DNA of 64,000 nucleotides from assembly GCF_900626135.1 (NCBI RefSeq), contig NZ_LR130786.1, positions 434,001 through 498,000 of the forward strand. The letters are read 5' to 3'. The number at the start of each line of letters is the position of its first letter. The stretch's first letter is position 1. Source of the stretch: Senegalia massiliensis. Its GTDB lineage: Bacteria > Bacillota > Clostridia > Tissierellales > SIT17. A program made the position numbers and the translations under genes. The notes below the pieces were generated by a model. The model worked only from the letters and a program-made list of their open reading frames with translations. It had not been told where the DNA came from and did not search any database. Below, piece by piece: positions 1-23,153 of the stretch.

Positions 1-342
1 TATTTGATAACCTATTTTTAGTCGAGGATTAAGAGATTTTAATGGTTCTTGGTATATCATAGATATGTCTCTTCCTCTTATATCTTGTATTTCTTCTTTG
101 CTTTTGGTTAATAAATCTTTACTTTCAAAAATTATTTTGCCACCTTTTATTTTTCCAAATGGTCTAGGTATTATATTCATTATAGATTTAGCAGTTACAG
201 ATTTCCCACTACCTGATTCACCTATTAAAGCCACTATTTCACCTTTTTTTATATTAAATGACACATCATCTACTGCATAAATAGTTTTATCTTCTAATTC
301 AAAATATGTTCTAAGATTTTCTACTTTTAATAAGTTTTCCAT
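1..342 (-). CDS. oppD: Oligopeptide ABC transporter ATP-binding protein (OppD/DppD-like), partial
   Basis: This is the N-terminal 114 codons of an ABC ATPase that runs off the left edge. It shows a Walker A (GESGSGKS) and a Q-loop segment (MIYQEPLKSLNP) that is typical of the OppD/DppD family of peptide importers; the family hydrolyses ATP on the cytoplasmic face to drive uptake through two permeases. I chose the ATG at 342 because GGGGG lies about 6 nt upstream; an in-frame ATG at 357 lacks a good ribosome site. It starts 20 nt after the second giant permease gene and is surely in the same operon. The rest of the protein, and any oppF or oppA partner, lies outside the window. Confidence 0.9.
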   Translation of the reverse strand, partial: MENLLKVENLRTYFELEDKTIYAVDDVSFNIKKGEIVALIGESGSGKSVTAKSIMNIIPRPFGKIKGGKIIFESKDLLTKSKEEIQDIRGRDISMIYQEPLKSLNPRLKIGYQI

Positions 343-361
343 TTGATTTTCCCCCATGCAA

Positions 362-2767
362 CTATTCCAGTTCATAATCCATTATTGTAATAACATCTAA
401 TATTAATTGAGTTTGATTCTTCAAATTTTCCTTACTCACGTATCTAAGATTCATTTCATTGCTTTCTATTTCATCTCTATTAGATAAATTTATTGAAGAT
501 AAAAATAACCCACTACTTCCATTTACATTTAATGTAGTTATGTCATCTTCTGGCTTTGCTATTTTGTCTAATATTATATTAACCTCTAATTCCTTAGCTC
601 TCTTAGAAAGATTTTTTACAACTTCATAATGATATTTATTATCAGGAATTAATAATGATCCATCAATATACATGTTATCAGTATTTTCATACCCTAAGTA
701 ATTTAAATAGATAAATAAATGTTCATCATGCAACGAATCATAAAAGCTACTTTTTTTAAGTGAGTCATAAGGAGTTATATTTTCTCCTTTAGAGCCATCT
801 AAAAATAAAAAATATATATTTCTCTGTGGTTTATATTCACTATCTTTTAATATATTTATTATCTCTAATAAAGAAGCAATAGATGAACCATTTTGCAACC
901 CTTTATTTAATACCTTACCTCCATTTATTCTTTCGTTATAATTAGTAGAAAATATAAGTGGAGGCTTTTCCTTATCTTCCCCTTCTATAAAAGCAAAAAT
1001 ATTATTTAAATCATTTTTTTCTGATTTATTTATTTTTACATTAAAAACTATTTCCTTGTCTGCATTTTCAATTAATTTACTAGCTGTATCATCATTTACT
1101 AAAATAATAAAATTAATTTTTCCATCTTGACTCTTTTGTTTTTCTATTTTATCTATAGGTGATATAATATTAGTTTCATTTTTTTCATTAATTTCTTTAT
1201 TAGTTCCAATATAAATAATTCCATCAATAAAATCCTTATTTGAAAGTTCTTTTTGTAATGAACTAATATCAAAGCTAAAACTATATTGATTTACAAGTAA
1301 AATATAATCATTATTACTATTATAATTGCCTTCCTTATAATTTTCTAAAGTCAATAATCTTCTTCTTAACTCACCTTCATATGTTTTTTCATCTAATTTG
1401 TTAGCATATACATTTTTAAAATTATAGGACCTTTTATAAAAAAATTTTATGTCTTCTTCTTTATCTATATAAAATTCACTATTTTCTACATCTATAGAAT
1501 GGTCTTTATCTTCATTATCTAAATATCCTGTTGAAAAAATAGATTTTGTATTATAATTCTCTAATTTATTTATTATATAATCTTGAGTGTTTTGTAAATT
1601 ATCTTCACTTATTTGATAATTATCTCTATATAATTCTTTAACATGATTAAAAACCCTATCACCACTTACTTTATATTTACTAACTTTTGAAGGAATGAAT
1701 AAGGTTATAAAAATTATTAATATTATAGATATTTTAATTAATACTTCTTTTTTAAATTTCCTAATATTTTTAAGTTGATAATAAAAAGTTATAGGAGATA
1801 AATTATATGGAATATGCTTTAAAAACACAATAAACTTAGAATTTCTTTTATTTAATTCCTGCTTTAACCCTTCTCCTAAAAGATTAAATCCAAGTACAGA
1901 TACAAATAAAGCAAGTGCAGGATATATTACTATCCATGGTTTACCAGCCGATATAGCATATCTAGCTGAAGCAAGCATTGAACCCCATTCAGGATAATAA
2001 CTTGGAGTAATAGATAGTTCTAATTCTTTTATTAAATTTGGATCTATTTTATTTACTCCAATATATATACCAAGTACTCCTAATTCTGCTATTATTATCA
2101 GCACTCTGCTTATTTCTATAAAAAAATAAATTATAATACTTGCAAATAGATGTGGTAATATATTTTCTATAGCAATACTCCATTTCTTTTTCCCTACTGT
2201 TATTTCTCCTTTTATAAAACTTTTTTCTAATATCTCTTTTATTCTATCTCTAAGAATAGTGCTTATTCTACCAAATCCTATAAATGTAAGTACTGTTATA
2301 TATGCTATAATAGCTTCATCTATTTCTAAATTTCTAATTGATTTTAAGTTTAATATAATATAAGTAATTATAAGAGCTGGTATGGCACTAAATGTAGCAT
2401 TAAATATATCAATAATTTTATTACTTAATTTATTTCCAAATGCTGCAATAAATGAAATAGGCAATGCTATTAAAAATCTTAAAATTGCAGAAAATACAGC
2501 TATTAACATAGTTATTTTTGCCCCATACATAATTCTACTAAATATATCCCTTCCAATTATATCAGTTCCCCAAATATTAGTATTATTAGGTGGATGGGGG
2601 GGATTGTTGACTATTAAATTACCATCTATCATTTTAGGTTGTGATAAATTAATTGCAAATGGATCTAATAGCATAAATCTATATCCGTGAATAGATATAA
2701 TAAATATAATAATAACTAATATTAATCCAATAAAAAGAGGAATATTTACTTTTTTAAATTTATTCAT
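362..2767 (-). CDS. OppC-like ABC permease fused to an extracellular pseudo-M28 peptidase domain (copy 2)
   Basis: 801 aa, against about 300 for ordinary OppC/DppC permeases. Residues 1-305 form the permease: a first membrane segment at 10-28, an OppC-type WGTDIIGRDIFSR motif near 66-78, and an EAA-like coupling loop around 190-240 ending GVLGIYIG. A further membrane segment (344-360) is followed by some 440 residues predicted to lie outside the cell. That tail resembles M28 aminopeptidases (GEDKEKPPLIFSTNY around 596-610, SSIASLLEI, then FLFLDGSKG at 653-661), but the metal-binding positions are not conserved: Asn replaces the first His and Ser-Lys replaces the Glu-Glu pair. It is a clear paralogue of the gene at 3707-6121. 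Its ATG overlaps the stop of the OppB-like gene (TAATG). A non-catalytic peptide-capturing role is inference. Confidence 0.8.
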   Translation of the reverse strand: MNKFKKVNIPLFIGLILVIIIFIISIHGYRFMLLDPFAINLSQPKMIDGNLIVNNPPHPPNNTNIWGTDIIGRDIFSRIMYGAKITMLIAVFSAILRFLIALPISFIAAFGNKLSNKIIDIFNATFSAIPALIITYIILNLKSIRNLEIDEAIIAYITVLTFIGFGRISTILRDRIKEILEKSFIKGEITVGKKKWSIAIENILPHLFASIIIYFFIEISRVLIIIAELGVLGIYIGVNKIDPNLIKELELSITPSYYPEWGSMLASARYAISAGKPWIVIYPALALFVSVLGFNLLGEGLKQELNKRNSKFIVFLKHIPYNLSPITFYYQLKNIRKFKKEVLIKISIILIIFITLFIPSKVSKYKVSGDRVFNHVKELYRDNYQISEDNLQNTQDYIINKLENYNTKSIFSTGYLDNEDKDHSIDVENSEFYIDKEEDIKFFYKRSYNFKNVYANKLDEKTYEGELRRRLLTLENYKEGNYNSNNDYILLVNQYSFSFDISSLQKELSNKDFIDGIIYIGTNKEINEKNETNIISPIDKIEKQKSQDGKINFIILVNDDTASKLIENADKEIVFNVKINKSEKNDLNNIFAFIEGEDKEKPPLIFSTNYNERINGGKVLNKGLQNGSSIASLLEIINILKDSEYKPQRNIYFLFLDGSKGENITPYDSLKKSSFYDSLHDEHLFIYLNYLGYENTDNMYIDGSLLIPDNKYHYEVVKNLSKRAKELEVNIILDKIAKPEDDITTLNVNGSSGLFLSSINLSNRDEIESNEMNLRYVSKENLKNQTQLILDVITIMDYELE

Positions 2768-3678
2768 TAAATATTTTCCTCCTTTAATTTAGGGTCTAGT
2801 ATATGTTTAATAATCTTAAATATTGATGTAATAAAAAAATATAATACTCCTATAATAATAGCTATAGCTATTATTATATTGTCTTCACCACTTTTTCTAA
2901 ACATCATATAAGCAATTCCTGGATATGCAAACATATATTCAACTATTAATAATGTAGAAATTATTATAGTAGTTATAGAGGAAAAGGAGTCCAATATGTC
3001 AATTATAGAATTTCTAATTATATGAATAGTTAATATCCTTCTATCATTAGCTCCTTTCCCCCTTGCAGTTTCCACGTATTCCTTAGTATAAGCTTCATCT
3101 ATTGAAAGTGAAGTTATTCTAGCTATATAGCTCATGGGAATAAGAGTTAGTGCAAGTATTGGAAGAATCATATGTCTTATTTCTCCATAACCTGCAGCAG
3201 GTACTAAGTCTATTCCATTTCTATATAATATTACAGCTAAAAATTGTAATAATAATATTAAAAATACATTTGGCATCGCTATTAATGCAAGAGTAGATAA
3301 TATTTTTATACTGGATTTATAAGGTTTATCATTTTTACTATCATATATTCCTTTTAATATACCTAAAATAATGGCCAATATTAATGATATGCTTAATAAA
3401 ACAATACTCCTATTAATTCCAGGTCTTATATATGACCATACCATTCTATTATCAGAAGTTTTTCCAAATGTTCCTGAAAAAATCATTTTATAATAATCAA
3501 ATATTTCATTTAAAATTTCTTTAAAATTTATATTTGTATTTATTGATATGTTTTTAATATCTATATTAAATTCAGAAGTAACAGGTATTTTGATTAAAAA
3601 TATTATAAAAGTTAATGCTGAAAGTACTAGTATGATATTTCGAATAAATTTCAAAATTATATTTCTATACTTTTTCAT
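2767..3678 (-). CDS. oppB: OppB-like ABC transporter permease
   Basis: 303 aa, normal for the family. An N-terminal membrane segment is followed by an extracytoplasmic stretch and a five-to-six helix permease core. The EAA loop is clear (YVETARGKGANDRR, about residues 200-213), followed by the family's VEYMFAYPGIAYMMF region. It should pair with one or both of the long OppC-like permeases that flank it to make the membrane channel of a peptide or nickel type importer. It sits 28 nt after the upstream permease gene and shares one base with the next, so it is translationally coupled in the operon. Substrate cannot be read from the sequence. Confidence 0.88.
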   Translation of the reverse strand: MKKYRNIILKFIRNIILVLSALTFIIFLIKIPVTSEFNIDIKNISINTNINFKEILNEIFDYYKMIFSGTFGKTSDNRMVWSYIRPGINRSIVLLSISLILAIILGILKGIYDSKNDKPYKSSIKILSTLALIAMPNVFLILLLQFLAVILYRNGIDLVPAAGYGEIRHMILPILALTLIPMSYIARITSLSIDEAYTKEYVETARGKGANDRRILTIHIIRNSIIDILDSFSSITTIIISTLLIVEYMFAYPGIAYMMFRKSGEDNIIIAIAIIIGVLYFFITSIFKIIKHILDPKLKEENI

Positions 3679-3706
3679 TCTAATTTCCTTTCTCTAAATT
3701 TCTATA

Positions 3707-6121
3707 TTAATCAAATTCATATTCATATAATGTTATGGCATCAATTATTAATTGAATTTGATTTTTTAACTTTTTTTCATTAATAATATTTATATTTTGC
3801 TCTATATTTTCTACTTCTTTCCTTTCATTGTCATTGATAGAGCTTATTAATACTCCACTACTTCCATTTACATGCATATCCGTTATTCCATCATTTGTAT
3901 TGGATACTTTATCAATTTTAAATTCTATTCCTAATTCTTTAGCCCTTTTAAATATTCCTTTAATAAAATTGTAGTGATTTTTATTGTCAGAATAAAGTAA
4001 AGATGTATCTATAGATAATGAATCTGAATTTTTATACCCTAAAAAATTTAATTGCATTATAAAATGATAAGGTGACAGTTTATTATAAAAATCAGTATTT
4101 CTAAATAAATCAGTACCTTTTTCTCTTGTCCCTTTAGAACCATCAAAAAAAAGAAAAATAATATCTCTTTTAAGAGTAAAATTGTTTTGTGATAATACTT
4201 TCATAATTTCTAAATTAGCAGCAATTGATGTACCATTATAAAAAACACCATTACCTAAATCATCAATGTCATTAGAAAAATAATCATAATTAGTTGCTAT
4301 TATAAGTGGTGGCTCATCTAATCCTTCCCCTTCAATATATCCCCCTATATTTTTCACTTCTACATTTTTTAAATTTTTTAATTTATATTCTATAATTAAT
4401 TCTTCTTTTGAATATTTTTTTAATTCTTGTACTGTATCTTCTGTTATATAACCCCTGAAAGCTGATCCAAATTGTTCTTTATCTTTCTTTAAATCATCGA
4501 TAGAACCTGCTATATTTACAAAAGAAACTATATCTTCTAGTGAAGTAACAGAAGATAGTAATACACCAGTTATAAATTTCTCTTTATTTATTTCTGTAGC
4601 TATCTTATTATAGCTATTCCAATTGTCTACAATTAAAAAATAATTTTCTTCTTCATTATATTTTTCATTTAAATAATCTTCATATAGTAGTAATTTACCA
4701 GAAATTTTTCCTTCATATATTGAATCTGAAGTTTCATTTAAATATATATTCTCCATAATAAAATCATCTTTATATTTAAAATTTATCTTTTCTTCTCCCT
4801 TTTTTAGATGCATTTCTGCTTTTTTAATATTATTCATTTCTACATTGATATTACCTTTATTTATATAACCATCTTCAAATAATGGGATTATATTATTTTC
4901 TTCTAATTGTTTAACAATATAAGTTGAAAACTCCTCATGACCTTCAGTTCCTATTACTCTATTATTATACTTTTGGTTAGATATTTCTTCTACTTCATTA
5001 TATATTCTATTACTATCGACTTTATATTTACTTATGCTGGGAGGATATAAAAAAACTAATCCTAATATTAGTACAAGTGATAATTTTATTAAAATACTTT
5101 TCTTATATTTTTCTTTATTCTTGATTTGATGTATGAAAGTTATTGGGGACAAATGATATGGAATATGTTTTATAAAAATTATAAACTTAGAATTTTTCTT
5201 ATTTACTTCCTCTTTTAATCCTTCTCCTAAAAGATTAAATCCAAATACAGTGACAAATAGAGCTAATGCAGGATACATTACTATCCACGGTTTCCAAGCT
5301 GATATGGCATATCTAGCTGAAGCAAGCATTGAACCCCATTCTGGATAATAACTTGGAGTAATTGTACTATCAATCCTTTCTAATAACTCTGGATTTATTT
5401 TATTTACTCCAATATATATACCAAGTACTCCTAACTCTGCTATGATTATAAGCACTCTGCTTATTTCTATAAAAAAATAGATTATAATATTTGCAAATAA
5501 ATGTGGGAATATATTCTCCACAGCAATAAGTAGACTGCTCTTCCCTATAGCAATCTCACCCTTTATAAAATCTTGTGATTTTATGTCTTCTATTTTTTCT
5601 CTTAATATAGCTCCTACTCTACCCCAACCTATAACTGAAAGCACAACTATGTAAGCTATAAAAGCAGACTCAATTTCCATATTATATATATAATAATAAT
5701 TTAATATAATATAACTAATTACAATAGCAGGAAGAGCACTAAAACTCATGTTAAAAAAATCAATTATATCTGAACTTCTTTTACTCCCAAATGCAGCTAA
5801 AAAAGAAAACGGAATTGCTATTAAAAATCTAAAAATTGATGTTATAAATGCTAAACCTATAGTTAACTTAGCTCCATAAATAACTCTACTAAATATATCT
5901 CTCCCTATAGAATCAGTTCCCCATATATTAATGTTATTAGGTGGATTAGGTGGGTTAGAAACATTTAATGTATCTCCTTCAAGTTTAGGTAATCCAAAAT
6001 TTGTAGCAAAAGGATCTAAAGGAATTATTCTATATCCAAAAATCAATATAAATACTATAAGTGAAACTATGATAATTCCTATAATTAACGGAATATTTAG
6101 TTTTTTAAGTTTATTTAGCAA
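3707..6121 (-). CDS. OppC-like ABC permease fused to an extracellular pseudo-M28 peptidase domain (copy 1)
   Basis: 804 aa and the first gene of the operon; TTG start at 6121 with GGAGGG 6-7 nt upstream. Residues 1-305 are an OppC-type permease (WGTDSIGRDIFSR at 67-79, coupling loop near 188-240). After a membrane segment at 344-360 comes an M28-like domain: RVIGTEGHEEFSTYIVKQLE (388-407) is the characteristic start of M28 exopeptidases, followed by a PA-like insert and GGYIEGEGLDEPPLIIATNY (593-612). Every expected zinc ligand is altered: N611 for His, F627/Y628 in the Asp-Asp motif, S662-K663 for Glu-Glu, N692 for Asp, M749 for the last His. The family normally cleaves N-terminal residues; this domain is therefore probably inactive and may bind peptides for the channel. 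That role is inferred. Confidence 0.82.
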   Translation of the reverse strand: MLNKLKKLNIPLIIGIIIVSLIVFILIFGYRIIPLDPFATNFGLPKLEGDTLNVSNPPNPPNNINIWGTDSIGRDIFSRVIYGAKLTIGLAFITSIFRFLIAIPFSFLAAFGSKRSSDIIDFFNMSFSALPAIVISYIILNYYYIYNMEIESAFIAYIVVLSVIGWGRVGAILREKIEDIKSQDFIKGEIAIGKSSLLIAVENIFPHLFANIIIYFFIEISRVLIIIAELGVLGIYIGVNKINPELLERIDSTITPSYYPEWGSMLASARYAISAWKPWIVMYPALALFVTVFGFNLLGEGLKEEVNKKNSKFIIFIKHIPYHLSPITFIHQIKNKEKYKKSILIKLSLVLILGLVFLYPPSISKYKVDSNRIYNEVEEISNQKYNNRVIGTEGHEEFSTYIVKQLEENNIIPLFEDGYINKGNINVEMNNIKKAEMHLKKGEEKINFKYKDDFIMENIYLNETSDSIYEGKISGKLLLYEDYLNEKYNEEENYFLIVDNWNSYNKIATEINKEKFITGVLLSSVTSLEDIVSFVNIAGSIDDLKKDKEQFGSAFRGYITEDTVQELKKYSKEELIIEYKLKNLKNVEVKNIGGYIEGEGLDEPPLIIATNYDYFSNDIDDLGNGVFYNGTSIAANLEIMKVLSQNNFTLKRDIIFLFFDGSKGTREKGTDLFRNTDFYNKLSPYHFIMQLNFLGYKNSDSLSIDTSLLYSDNKNHYNFIKGIFKRAKELGIEFKIDKVSNTNDGITDMHVNGSSGVLISSINDNERKEVENIEQNINIINEKKLKNQIQLIIDAITLYEYEFD

Positions 6122-6436
6122 TTTATCCCTCCTTTTCCTATAGTTTATATTCTATAAATTTTTTTATATTCCTTCTTTATTTTAAATATATTTTTAATCA
6201 AAAAATTTATCCCAAGTTTTTTTGTTTTATAAATATATTCTAATTTGTTTTCTATAACCATTAAATAATGTAATCACTTTTTGTTTTTTGGTGAGTTATA
6301 TCTGATTTACTATAAAATAACTTTGCTTGATTGTATTTTTCATACTTTAATAACTCATAATTTTAAATCTTTATTTTTATTTATCCTATGATATAATTAC
6401 AATATAAGGTAATTTTAGAAAAATAGAGGTGAAACG
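6122..6436. other. Divergent intergenic region between importer operon and Agr-like regulator
   Basis: 315 bp of very AT-rich sequence separate the two divergent transcription units. It contains a perfect 8-bp inverted repeat (TGAGTTAT at 6292-6299, ATAACTCA at 6350-6357) and a TATAAT at 6392-6397 upstream of the response regulator without a good -35 box. A weak -35 is what one expects of a promoter that needs an activator such as a LytTR regulator. The repeat does not match the AgrA direct-repeat consensus well. I find no convincing AgrD-type peptide gene on either strand. Confidence 0.4.
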
Positions 6437-7149
6437 ATGCTGAATATAGCTATTTGTGATGATGAAAATGCCATATGCAATCAATTAGAAAACATTATAT
6501 TAGATATTAGTCCAAAATATAATATGAAGATTGAAATAGATATATTTTATACTGCTGAAAATTTATACAAAAATTTATTAAATAAAAATAAATATGATTT
6601 AATTTTTTTAGATATTGAATTAAAATATATGAGTGGAGTCCAATTAGGAAAAAAATAAGAGAAGATATAAATGACCAAATTACTCAAATAATATATATTT
6701 CAAGTAAAACTTCATATGCTATGGAGTTATTTTCTATAAGACCTTTAGATTTCTTAATTAAACCAATTAGTACCAAAAAAGTGGACAAAACATTTAGCAC
6801 AGCTATGAAATTAATAAAAAATAAAAATAACTTTTTTAATTATCAAAAAGAAAAAGAATGTCATCGTATCCCTATAACAGATATACTTTATTTTGAAAGT
6901 AATAATAGACAAATAAATATATATACTCTAAATGGAAAATATTCTTTTTACGGTACTTTAAAAGAAATTTTTAATAGATTAAATGATTATGGATTTGTAT
7001 TTATTCATAGATCTTATCTTATCAATATAAATCATGTGAAAATCTTTAAATACAATAAAGTAACTTTAACAGATAATACAATTCTAAATATTACTCAAAC
7101 TTTTAGAAAAAATTTACGAGAGTTACAGATGAAGATAGGTGAAATTTAA
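6437..7149 (+). CDS. LytTR-family response regulator (AgrA-like), interrupted by a -1 frameshift at an A7 tract
   Basis: Read as two frames, this is one AgrA-like regulator of about 237 aa, the usual family length. Frame 1 (6437-6658) gives the receiver start with acidic D8/D9 and phospho-acceptor D59 (LIFLDIEL), then stops at TAA 6656-6658. A -1 shift at the preceding A7 restores the rest: the receiver end with FLIKPI, then a LytTR DNA-binding domain (ILYFESNNRQINIYTLNGKY, IHRSYLININHV). The slip site is a perfect A-AAA-AAA heptamer with GGAG (6635-6638) exactly 10 nt upstream, a layout like the dnaX frameshift signal. It may be programmed frameshifting, polymerase slippage, a true mutation, or a one-base sequencing error. 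It overlaps the kinase start by one base (TAATG). Confidence 0.8.
6649..6658 (+). promoter_or_regulatory. Candidate -1 slippery site (A7) followed by TAA stop
   Basis: Codons GGA AAA AAA TAA contain an A-AAA-AAA slippery heptamer in the correct phase, directly before the zero-frame stop. One base of backward slippage continues into the LytTR half. A GGAG 10 nt upstream could act as an internal Shine-Dalgarno stimulator. No obvious downstream stem-loop is visible. A lost A in the genome or the assembly would look the same. Confidence 0.5.
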
Positions 7150-8423
7150 TGAGTGTTATTAATTATGTCTTATTTTATCTTATAATTAATACTTTATATG
7201 TATATACCATATTTAGATTTATGGGAGTTTTTTTTGAAAGAGAAAAAATAAAAACAATAGAAATTTTTTCTTATTTTATTTTTTACATACTAATTTCTTT
7301 TATTTTTTTAGTTTTTAATATACCTTTACTTAGTTTAGTTACAAATATAATTTCTTTTTTTATACTATCTTTTAATTATAAGTCAACTTTAAAAAGGAAA
7401 ATCATTTCTATATTTTTTATAATTTCAATAATGATGTTTTCAGAAATTATAATTACTTTACTTATAGTTAATATAAATTTATCTATTTTTAAGTCAACAT
7501 ATCTAGATATTTCTATTATAATTTTTAGTCGAATAATAAGCTATCTTATAGTATTAATATTTGAAGGAGCTAAAAATGTAAAAAATAATATAGAATTGCC
7601 TAATATTTATTGGTTCTCTGTATTTTTTATCCCTTTAAGCTCTATGTATTTAACATTATTACTTTTTCAAAATAGTAATTTAAATAAATATGAATTATTA
7701 ATCTCTATATTCATATTGTTTATAATCAATATAGTAACTTTTTATTTATATGATATGTTAAATAGAATATATAAAGAAAAAATACAAAATAAATTATTAG
7801 AAAAACAAAATGAATATTATGAAGAACAATTTAAAATTATGAATTCTTCTTATAAAAAATTAAAGGCTACAAGACATGATTTAAAAAATCACCTTATAGC
7901 TATAGAAAATTATATAATTAATAATAAAAAAGAAAAAGCATTAAAATACATAGAAAAAATTAATAATTCCTCTTATGATAAAAGAGATTTTGCTAATTCT
8001 GGTAATGTAGATATTGATAGTATATTAAATTATAAAATTCAATCTGCTAAATCAAAAGGTATCAGTATAGAGTTGAATTTAAATATACCTTACGATTTAA
8101 ATTTAGATTCTTTTGATATGATTATAGTCATTGGAAACTTAATAGATAATGCCATAGAAGCAACTTCTAAATTAGAAAATGATAAAAGGTTTATACATAT
8201 TAGCATATTTTATGATAGAAATATACTTCATATGCACTTTAAGAATACCTTTGATGGTAAAATTCTAAAAGAACAAGAAAAAATCCTAACCACAAAAAAA
8301 GATAAGTTTAATCACGGTATAGGACTTAAAAATGTTAAATATATATTAGAAAAATATGAGGGGGACTTAAATTATAGTTATGATGATAATATTTTCTATG
8401 TAAAACTATTACTTTATTTATAA
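7149..8423 (+). CDS. AgrC-like sensor histidine kinase
   Basis: 424 aa. The first 200 or so residues are a polytopic membrane sensor with about six hydrophobic segments, as in AgrC/ComD/FsrC kinases that read secreted peptides. A short coiled stretch leads to the phospho-acceptor motif RHDLKNHL (near residue 240), typical of the HPK10 class, and a HATPase domain with the N box (GNLIDNAIEA) and G box (HGIGLKNVKYILEKYEG). It is coupled to the upstream LytTR regulator by a one-base overlap, so the two are a cognate pair. The ligand is unknown and no AgrD gene is visible. Confidence 0.9.
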   Translation: MSVINYVLFYLIINTLYVYTIFRFMGVFFEREKIKTIEIFSYFIFYILISFIFLVFNIPLLSLVTNIISFFILSFNYKSTLKRKIISIFFIISIMMFSEIIITLLIVNINLSIFKSTYLDISIIIFSRIISYLIVLIFEGAKNVKNNIELPNIYWFSVFFIPLSSMYLTLLLFQNSNLNKYELLISIFILFIINIVTFYLYDMLNRIYKEKIQNKLLEKQNEYYEEQFKIMNSSYKKLKATRHDLKNHLIAIENYIINNKKEKALKYIEKINNSSYDKRDFANSGNVDIDSILNYKIQSAKSKGISIELNLNIPYDLNLDSFDMIIVIGNLIDNAIEATSKLENDKRFIHISIFYDRNILHMHFKNTFDGKILKEQEKILTTKKDKFNHGIGLKNVKYILEKYEGDLNYSYDDNIFYVKLLLYL

Positions 8424-8427
8424 ATAT

Positions 8428-8940
8428 TTATTGTACTTTTCCAAATAAAATCATTATTGAAAGTATAAATAAAGATATTGTTATTGTAAGTGCAATATTA
8501 TTAAGTTCTAATATTAATAATATTAACACTACAACTAATTCTATAATACACATCATTCTTGATATAATTTTATGTTTATATGCTTTTTCTTTATTAGAGA
8601 AATTATTACTATCTTCTACTGGAGATAGTAATAATACTATAAATGAGGATATTATACCTAAAAATAATATAGTATAATTTGATGATGGAATATATTTTAT
8701 AGATATCATTGCTATTATAGTTAAAGCCAAAGAAAATATATAGCAATTTAAATTATCACCTGCATCATATCCTCCTGTATATGCACGAATTGGTTCATAA
8801 GAAATAATAAAAATTATACTCTCTAAAACCATATCAAATAATATTCCAATTCCAATTATAGTTATAATATTTACTACTATAGGTATAATTCTTTTTATTA
8901 TAAGTGTATTAGGACTATTAATGCTATTCTCCATTTTCAT
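8428..8940 (-). CDS. AgrB-like membrane protein with catalytic His replaced by Asp
   Basis: 170 aa, somewhat shorter than AgrB (about 190), with four or more hydrophobic helices. AgrB is the membrane cysteine endopeptidase that processes AgrD to a cyclic autoinducer; its active site is a His in R-x-x-x-GGYHA and a Cys seven residues later. Here the motif reads IRAYTGGYDAGDNLNC: Arg52, the GGY and Cys66 are kept but residue 59 is Asp, not His (codon GAT). The ATG at 8940 has AAGGA upstream. The gene is convergent with the kinase, leaving only 4 nt between them, and no AgrD reading frame lies upstream on its strand. It may be inactive or use altered chemistry. Confidence 0.72.
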   Translation of the reverse strand: MKMENSINSPNTLIIKRIIPIVVNIITIIGIGILFDMVLESIIFIISYEPIRAYTGGYDAGDNLNCYIFSLALTIIAMISIKYIPSSNYTILFLGIISSFIVLLLSPVEDSNNFSNKEKAYKHKIISRMMCIIELVVVLILLILELNNIALTITISLFILSIMILFGKVQ

Positions 8941-20669: not shown

Positions 20670-23153
20670 CTAAATAAATAGATTAACATCTGAATTTTCT
20701 GCTGCACCTAAATAATTTGCAACTCCACCTATTTCTACTCCATCTATAAGTTCTTCTCTTTTTATTCCCATAACATCCATACTCATTGCACAAGCTACTA
20801 TTCTTACACCATTCTCTTGTGCTTTTTTTATTAATTCTTCCAATGAATCAATATTTTTATCATTCATTACTTTTCTAATCATTTTTGATCCCATACCAGC
20901 CATATTCATACGAGACAGACCTAATCTTTTACTTCCCCTAGGCATCATTTTTGCAAACATTTTATCCATAAAACTTTTATCTGTTTCTACCTTCTCATCT
21001 TTTCTTAAAATATTTAATCCCCAGAATGTAAAGAACATAGTAACTTCTCTACCCATAGATGCTGCACCATTTGCAATTATAAAGGAAGCTATAGCTTTAT
21101 CTAAATCTCCACTAAATACAACCATACTTTTATCTTCTCTAGGATTAATTACTTCTTTATTTTGAGTTTTTACAGCTGTACTACCCTTTTTTAAAATAGC
21201 TAAAAATGAGTTTTCTTCTTTTTTAGTAGATAGTAAAGTATTACCTGTTCTTTCTGCCCATGTTTTTATATCACTCATAAATCCAGGGTCAGTAGCTTTT
21301 ACTTCTAATATATCTCCGTCTTCTAATTCTTTCATTTTATTAAAAACTTGCATAATAGGTCCAGGACACTGAAGACCACAAGCATTCAATTTTACAGTTT
21401 TTCTTTCTGTATCCTCTGTACTTTCTAAATTTCCAGCTTCATCATAATTAACATCTGTACTACATGCTTCAGCTGAACAATTATCGTCATTACAATCCAT
21501 GCAACTAAAAGTAGAATATCCTCCATTTAGATTCATTACATTTTTAAATCCATTCTGCTTTAATATTCTAGTTGCAATATATCCTCTTACTCCTATAGCA
21601 CAATAGACTACTATTGTTTTATCTTTATCTAATTCATTTAATCTGTTTCTTAATTCATCTACAGGTATATTAATAGAGTCATTTATAAAACCAAGCTGTC
21701 TCTCAATATCTTCTCTAACATCAAGAATTATAGTATTACTCATGTCTAAAGTTTCTATTTCATCATAATTTATAACATCTACATCACCTTTTAGTATGTT
21801 TTCAGCTGTAAAGCCTGCCATATTTACAGGGTCCTTTGCTGATGAATAAGGTGGTGCATAAGCAAGCTCTAATTTTTTCAAATCATAAATTGTACCATTA
21901 AATCTAATAGCTGTTGCAATTACATCTATTCTCTTATCTACTCCATTATATCCTACAATTTGAGAACCTAATACTTTTCCATTTCTATCAAATATCAACT
22001 TTATTGTCATTGGTATTGCCCCTGGGTAATATCCTGCATTTGATTTTGAATGTATTAGTGCAACAAAATAATCCTCTTTATATTTCAAATCATTTTTCTT
22101 TAAAGTTTTCTCATTTATACCAGTACTAGCTATTGTTAAATCAAATACTTTTGCAATTGAAGTTCCCTGAGTCCCCTCATATTTCTCATATCTACCTGCA
22201 ATATTATTTGCAACAATCCTACCTTGTTTATTAGCAGGTCCTGCAAGAGGTACCATTGTCTTGGTTTTTGTATTAAAATCAATTATTTCTACAACATCTC
22301 CTAATGCATATATGTTATCATCAGAAGTTTTTAAGTATTCATCAACTATTATTCCACCACGTTTATTCGTTTCAAGTTCTGCGCTTTTTGCAAGCTCTGA
22401 ATTAGGTCTTATACCAATTGAAAGAATTATCATATCCGTTTCAATTTTATCACCACTTTGTAAAACTACAGTTGTACTTCCATCATTATTATTTATAAAT
22501 TCTTTAACTCCATCTTCTAATACTAAATTAACATTTTTACTCCTTATATGATTATGAGCTATTTGAGCCATTTCATAATCTACAGGAGCCATAACTTGAT
22601 CTGCCATTTCTATAATAGAAACCTCTAGTCCTTTATCGTGAAGATTTTCTGCCATCTCAAGTCCTATAAACCCTCCACCAATAACAGCTGCTCTTTTTGG
22701 TTTTTTTGTATCCATATATGACTTTATTTTATCTGTATCTGGTATATTCCATAATGAAAAAATATTCTCTGCATCTATTCCTTTTATTGGTGGTCGTAAA
22801 GGTGTAGATCCTGGTGAAAGAACTAAAACATCATAACTTTCTTTATACTCTTCATTGCTATTTAAATTTTTTATACTAATTTCTTGTTTCTCTTTGTCTA
22901 TACTTATTACTTCATTTTTAACTCTTACATCAATATTAAATCTAGCATTCATATCCTCTGGAGTTTGAAGCAATAAGTTATCTCTTTCTTCTATAGTACC
23001 TCCAATATAATAAGGAAGTCCACAATTTGCAAAAGAAATATATTCTCCTCTTTCTATCATGATTATTTCTGAATCTTCATCCATTCTTCTAAGTCTGGCA
23101 GCAGTACTTGCACCACCTGCTACTCCTCCTACTATAACTATTTTTTTTGACAT
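20670..23153 (-). CDS. CoA-disulfide reductase / rhodanese / TusA / DsrE four-domain fusion
   Basis: 827 aa. Residues 1-450 are an FAD/NAD(P)H-dependent CoA-disulfide reductase-like oxidoreductase with the redox Cys44 in SFANCGLPYYIGG and dinucleotide motifs GGVAGGAS and VIGGGFIGLE. A rhodanese domain (460-548) has active-site C518 (VVYCAIGVRG). After a short Cys-rich linker (551-564) comes a TusA/SirA domain with LNACGLQCPGPI (C592, C596), then a DsrE-like domain (675-827; C788). Each of these modules handles CoA persulfide or protein persulfides, so the chain looks like a relay that reduces or transfers sulfane sulfur. An ArsR regulator lies 80 nt upstream on the same strand. Substrate is inferred from the family only. 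Confidence 0.92.
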   Translation of the reverse strand: MSKKIVIVGGVAGGASTAARLRRMDEDSEIIMIERGEYISFANCGLPYYIGGTIEERDNLLLQTPEDMNARFNIDVRVKNEVISIDKEKQEISIKNLNSNEEYKESYDVLVLSPGSTPLRPPIKGIDAENIFSLWNIPDTDKIKSYMDTKKPKRAAVIGGGFIGLEMAENLHDKGLEVSIIEMADQVMAPVDYEMAQIAHNHIRSKNVNLVLEDGVKEFINNNDGSTTVVLQSGDKIETDMIILSIGIRPNSELAKSAELETNKRGGIIVDEYLKTSDDNIYALGDVVEIIDFNTKTKTMVPLAGPANKQGRIVANNIAGRYEKYEGTQGTSIAKVFDLTIASTGINEKTLKKNDLKYKEDYFVALIHSKSNAGYYPGAIPMTIKLIFDRNGKVLGSQIVGYNGVDKRIDVIATAIRFNGTIYDLKKLELAYAPPYSSAKDPVNMAGFTAENILKGDVDVINYDEIETLDMSNTIILDVREDIERQLGFINDSINIPVDELRNRLNELDKDKTIVVYCAIGVRGYIATRILKQNGFKNVMNLNGGYSTFSCMDCNDDNCSAEACSTDVNYDEAGNLESTEDTERKTVKLNACGLQCPGPIMQVFNKMKELEDGDILEVKATDPGFMSDIKTWAERTGNTLLSTKKEENSFLAILKKGSTAVKTQNKEVINPREDKSMVVFSGDLDKAIASFIIANGAASMGREVTMFFTFWGLNILRKDEKVETDKSFMDKMFAKMMPRGSKRLGLSRMNMAGMGSKMIRKVMNDKNIDSLEELIKKAQENGVRIVACAMSMDVMGIKREELIDGVEIGGVANYLGAAENSDVNLFI

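Follow-up and report, generated by a model that had tools for sequence, protein, structure and literature searches.

ABC importers of the Opp/Dpp kind are generally taken to need a Venus-flytrap binding protein. In GlnPQ and OpuA, which are also ABC importers, the receptor is fused to the permease. E. coli DppBCDF has no activity unless DppA is present, and a “scoop” motif in the region just after the first transmembrane segment (TM1) of DppB inserts into the DppA cleft and seals the cavity (PMC12136057). Outside this transporter family, nicastrin is a receptor whose ectodomain is a dead M28 peptidase fold (PMC4326451). Here, we describe an operon in which two OppC-type permeases each carry an extracellular M28 domain that has lost its active site. 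The original prediction knew of no described transporter of this design, and we found no description of a permease–M28 fusion in the open-licence literature either; one paper (PMC10536192) mentions signal-peptide peptidases only, not such a fusion.

The window is the whole stretch of DNA that was analysed, 64,000 nucleotides from Senegalia massiliensis. The operon lies at its start, with the following features:

3707..6121, minus strand: OppC-M28 fusion, copy 1, 804 aa; an intact ORF, identified by Pfam and predicted structure
5192..6121, minus strand: OppC/DppC-type permease of copy 1, residues 1-310, matching DppC 8z1x_B
5027..5107, minus strand: predicted seventh membrane helix of copy 1, residues 339-365, from hydropathy and charge; the model has a helix at 340-358
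3710..5029, minus strand: pseudo-M28 domain of copy 1, residues 365-804, assigned from fold matches; ligands gone
2767..3678, minus strand: OppB-type permease partner, 303 aa, without the PGDP scoop motif, between the two fusions
362..2767, minus strand: OppC-M28 fusion, copy 2, 801 aa; an intact ORF, identified by Pfam
365..1705, minus strand: pseudo-M28 domain of copy 2 (model m9c5a8d785f13); ligands gone
1..375, minus strand: fused OppD-OppF ATPase gene, 668 aa, with only its start in the window

Beyond the window edge, the operon continues through the fused OppD-OppF gene to separate OppD and OppF genes and a second OppB gene, downstream of which lies a molybdopterin and oxidoreductase region unrelated to the transporter. 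The operon supplies an OppB partner as well as two ATPases, whose Walker A, Walker B and signature motifs are all intact, including those in both halves of the fused protein. There is no OppA gene in the window's operon or in its continuation outside the window. The separate OppD and OppF that follow the fused gene (4369-6375, minus strand, in locus L007) are ~90% identical to its two halves, which is a recent duplication within the operon. Elsewhere in the genome, a third OppC-M28 copy, 46% identical, stands alone on a different contig, and an unlinked gene encodes an M28 lipoprotein of 1014 aa with an intact active site (HDEEDH), which served as our active-site reference.

The original prediction described a complete OppC-type permease, a membrane segment and about 440 extracellular residues with M28 landmarks in both proteins. 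This description was borne out. Both ORFs are intact, both proteins match BPD_transp_1 and Peptidase_M28 above the curated Pfam cut-offs, and the models agree; the landmark RVIGTEGHEEFSTYIV does begin at residue 388 of copy 1. In both fusions, ~440 residues predicted to be extracellular follow the seventh membrane helix. In both, the helix is preceded by a lysine-rich cytoplasmic linker, and hydropathy and charge place the C-terminal domain of copy 1 outside. In a full-length AlphaFold model of copy 1 (mean pLDDT 77, pTM 0.59, shallow alignment), residues 5-308 match DppC 8z1x_B (Z 26.5, rmsd 2.4 over 266 residues), and residues 365-800 match M28 aminopeptidases and glutaminyl cyclases, with Z 26.7 and rmsd 2.5 over 253 residues for 1qq9, and Z 26.3 over 370 residues for BSAP (6hc7). 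Copy 2 was modelled as the domain only (pLDDT 74, pTM 0.67, shallow alignment) and matches the M28 fold with Z 25.7-25.8 (for 1qq9, Z 25.7 and rmsd 2.6 over 250 residues). Both copies have a PA-like insert, roughly residues 410-590 in copy 1, as do BSAP and the transferrin receptor. As judged from these models, the C-terminal domain of both copies is an M28 zinc-aminopeptidase fold, rather than an unrelated one.

When aligned to the intact paralogue (HDEEDH), copy 1 has N611, Y628, S662, K663 and N692 in place of the first five residues, and its last ligand is not His; the corresponding residues in copy 2 are N, Q, S, K and N, again with no last His. The catalytic base Glu is Ser662 in copy 1 and Ser in copy 2, and neither copy retains the zinc ligands H, D, E, D and H of an active M28 enzyme. 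This agrees with the original prediction, in which every ligand of copy 1, and those that could be aligned in copy 2, had been replaced. The ligands are gone in every Bacillota OppC-M28 homologue examined, so the strain does not merely hold a decayed copy. An active fusion that decayed in a single strain is ruled out by this clade-wide loss, and a local pseudogene by the orthologues, paralogues and purifying selection.

The former active site has acquired a conserved pattern of its own. The loops that once formed it have a mean entropy of 1.24 bits, as opposed to 1.88 bits in the remaining domain (p 4e-4). The old His position is Asn or Asp in 12/14 sequences, the old base is Ser in 12/14, and the old Asp is Asn in 12/14, while Tyr612, Ser632 and Asp660 are invariant. 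As a consensus, the old His loop now reads (N/D)YD, the old Asp loop NG(T/S)S and the old Glu-Glu loop F-x-D-(G/A)-S, and the former Asp is N. Judged by sequence, this pattern fits a reused pocket, and structural constraint alone could give the same result. For the M28 part, dN/dS is 0.285 between the third copy and its orthologue in G003, and 0.06 for a Fusibacter pair; values for the permease parts are lower, i.e., the M28 part evolves faster. These substitution rates indicate that the pseudo-M28 domain is under purifying selection.

The fusions also differ from canonical OppC genes in what surrounds them. Across 14 genomes that carry the fusion, an SBP_bac_5 gene lies within 6 kb of 0/19 OppC-M28 genes, some of which sit on short contigs, versus 30/37 canonical OppC genes, where most of those without a nearby SBP are on contigs having no SBP match. 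The OppC-M28 genes of G000, G002, G003, G012, G022, G051, G056 and G057 have kilobases of flanking sequence. Among relatives, there are compact operons that consist of the B, C-M28, D and F genes and nothing else. The OppB partners differ as well: the PGDP scoop motif just after TM1 is present in 0/30 fusion partners, as compared to 34/34 (lenient match) or 26/34 (strict match) in the comparison set, although these sequences are related rather than independent, such that Fisher tests overstate the significance of the difference. The contrast holds in both Bacillota and Chloroflexota. Lastly, in an OppC protein from a myxobacterium of the Sandaracinaceae (L127, 7905-10568, plus strand), the C-terminal slot is occupied by an SBP_bac_5 domain (230 bits), which is a precedent for a receptor in this position.

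The lack of a nearby SBP gene, the missing scoop motif and the myxobacterial precedent favour a model in which the dead M28 domain stands in for the binding protein. We give a probability of about 0.55 to this reading, i.e., that the operon encodes an Opp/Dpp-type peptide importer functioning without a separate SBP and using the dead M28 domain on OppC as its receptor. This extracellular domain, an M28 aminopeptidase fold that the seventh membrane helix tethers to OppC and that has lost both zincs and the catalytic base, would bind peptides in its reshaped former active-site cleft. Bound peptides would then be handed over to the OppB/OppC pore, with uptake presumably powered by OppD/OppF. Peptide binding, hand-over to the pore and the direction of transport are steps that we infer. 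The original prediction had likewise proposed a built-in peptide-binding domain; the same three observations support that idea, which needs one addition, since an active M28 partner is present in some relatives.

These active partners take several forms. In Geosporobacter subterraneus, OppB has an N-terminal M28 domain that retains every ligand (HDEEDH; 124 bits in Pfam), and its gene adjoins that of the OppC bearing the dead M28. In two Clostridia MAGs, OppC-M28 is immediately preceded by a separate gene for an intact M28. Five Chloroflexota loci have such a gene downstream, and the M28s that these five encode are sister to the dead OppC-fused domain. Three intact Chloroflexota M28 proteins near OppC-M28 are ~1500–1650 aa long (L066 11568-16412, L081 5357-10306 and L110 12496-16902); the one scanned, from L066, has an additional peptidase MA-like domain. 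Because partners are active in some relatives, two readings fit: the receptor evolved from an active partner, or active and dead domains work as a pair. In the latter case, which is the main rival, the dead M28 would be a pseudo-enzyme that docks or regulates a catalytically active M28 exopeptidase at the pore, with cutting and import of the products taking place on the spot. A dead domain serving as such a scaffold fits the relatives with an active M28 equally well. However, the OppB-fused M28 is also dead in G022 and in Fusibacter paucivorans, no active M28 gene is found in or beside the window (Anaeromonas) operon, and the intact paralogue is unlinked; M28 proteins of 1014–1067 aa that resemble this paralogue also occur in genomes without the fusion. 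Since Anaeromonas has no linked active M28, we put the receptor reading first for the window and consider a working pair rather unlikely.

The receptor reading must also be weighed against the unlinked binding proteins of the same genomes, since SBP_bac_5 genes occur in 14/14 fusion genomes examined (four of them in G000) and might serve the transporter. The M28 domain would then be a mere accessory, such as a gate, sensor or adhesin. This is at odds with the OppB partners, all 30 of which lack the element that inserts into the SBP cleft, and we judge it improbable. We hold it less probable still that the system carries non-peptide cargo or exports its substrate, or that the M28 domain recognises a protein ligand much as the transferrin receptor does. 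The transferrin receptor and nicastrin, whose dead M28 ectodomains are of a kind seen among the Foldseek matches, do act as receptors, and SapBCDF, a member of the same permease family, is an exporter, as its NCBIfam name also says; nevertheless, the permease models that come closest are those of peptide or nickel importers, each match scoring below the equivalog cut-off of its model, and the ATPases resemble OppD/OppF and have intact motifs. The loss of catalytic residues and the faster evolution of the domain would also be expected if it were a functionless remnant of a peptidase fusion. We give this explanation very little credence, given an open reading frame and purifying selection in many genera, the conserved new residue pattern, and a similar, apparently independent fusion in a second phylum.

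Full-length or near full-length relatives of the fusion (E ≤ 1e-30) occur in 19/249 Tissierellales genomes and 13/92 genera. Named hosts include Anaerosalibacter, Fusibacter and Geosporobacter. The fusion is also found in further Bacillota and in Chloroflexota, where a search from one single-chain protein gave M28-length matches in 4/201 genomes. A scan of viral contigs found no relative. The Bacillota fusions group as a single clade in the permease tree (100/100); two rows of this clade lack M28, one being a contig-end fragment and the other a split frame of G041. The Bacillota OppC-fused domains also form a single clade (99/97) in the M28 tree, and those of Chloroflexota are sister to active Chloroflexota M28 (joint group 100/100); this tree is midpoint-rooted and some of its branches are long. 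The latter grouping suggests that the Chloroflexota fusion apparently arose separately from that in Bacillota. Chloroflexota fused M28 domains show a graded state: those of L081 and L110 keep H, D, E and D with the base gone, while in single-chain OppB-OppC-M28 proteins of ~1200 aa most ligands are gone.

Some family members depart from this architecture. Short OppC-M28 proteins of 612–650 aa (L040 8886-10838, L043 9695-11599 and L045 7745-9583) have no PA-like insert, and their EAA coupling loop is missing. The third copy from the window's genome and the proteins of L043 and L045 lack any neighbouring gene for B, D or F; from their sequence context, the latter two may no longer be transporter subunits. 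Given these stand-alone copies and the forms without an EAA loop, not every family member need transport. Other domains also occur at the C-terminus of OppC. Chloroflexota OppC proteins of ~740 aa were rejected as M28 fusions and excluded from the M28 tree, because a PQQ/BamB-like beta-propeller occupies the M28 slot (L068 7971-10193, L077 5825-8044, L079 7980-10196 and L098 6199-8364). A Desulfobacterales OppC of 1021 aa (L126 2147-5209, plus strand) has a long C-terminal TPR region.

Next to the operon, the window contains a LytTR/AgrA-type response regulator gene (6437-7149, plus strand) that is interrupted by a frameshift within a run of A, with the receiver part ending near 6657 and the DNA-binding part spanning 6721-7149. 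It is adjoined by an AgrC-like kinase gene (7149-8423) and a gene for a 170-aa AgrB (8428-8940, minus strand); no agrD is visible by these genes (6437-8940). A link between these neighbours and the fusion operon was set aside, as the flanking genes of the A. frigoriresistens operon seem to have no relation to the agr-like ones. Further along, at 20670-23153 (minus strand), an 827-aa protein combines pyridine nucleotide-disulphide oxidoreductase, rhodanese, TusA and DsrE domains.

If the receptor reading is true, the role of the binding protein in peptide import can pass to an unrelated fold, and bacteria have a parallel to nicastrin and the transferrin receptor. Where OppB bears an active M28 and OppC a dead one, as in some lineages, the transition from enzyme to receptor is directly testable. 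A broader and more tentative proposal, to which we give somewhat less than even odds, is that of an importer class whose receptor is a repurposed dead peptidase, with at least two origins (Bacillota and Chloroflexota); in some lineages, an active sister peptidase would make cutting and import one machine.

Among known systems, the closest are the Opp/Dpp importers, such as E. coli DppABCDF and M. tuberculosis DppABCD, which share with the fusion operon the OppB and OppC folds, the two OppD/OppF ATPases and an EAA-type loop in OppC. The fusion operon differs in having no nearby SBP gene and an OppB without the scoop motif, and its OppC adds a helix and an extracellular M28 fold. As in GlnPQ and OpuA, an extracytoplasmic domain is covalently joined to the transmembrane subunit, but their receptor is a Venus-flytrap SBP whereas the fused domain here is a dead M28 fold. 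M28 aminopeptidases with a PA domain (BSAP, 6hc7; AM-1, 2ek8; PaAP, 8acg) share the fold, PA-like insert included; by contrast, the fusion domain has its zinc ligands and base replaced, and is membrane-anchored on a transporter. The transferrin receptor and nicastrin similarly display a non-enzymatic M28 fold outside the membrane, but both are eukaryotic receptors, and neither is part of an ABC transporter.
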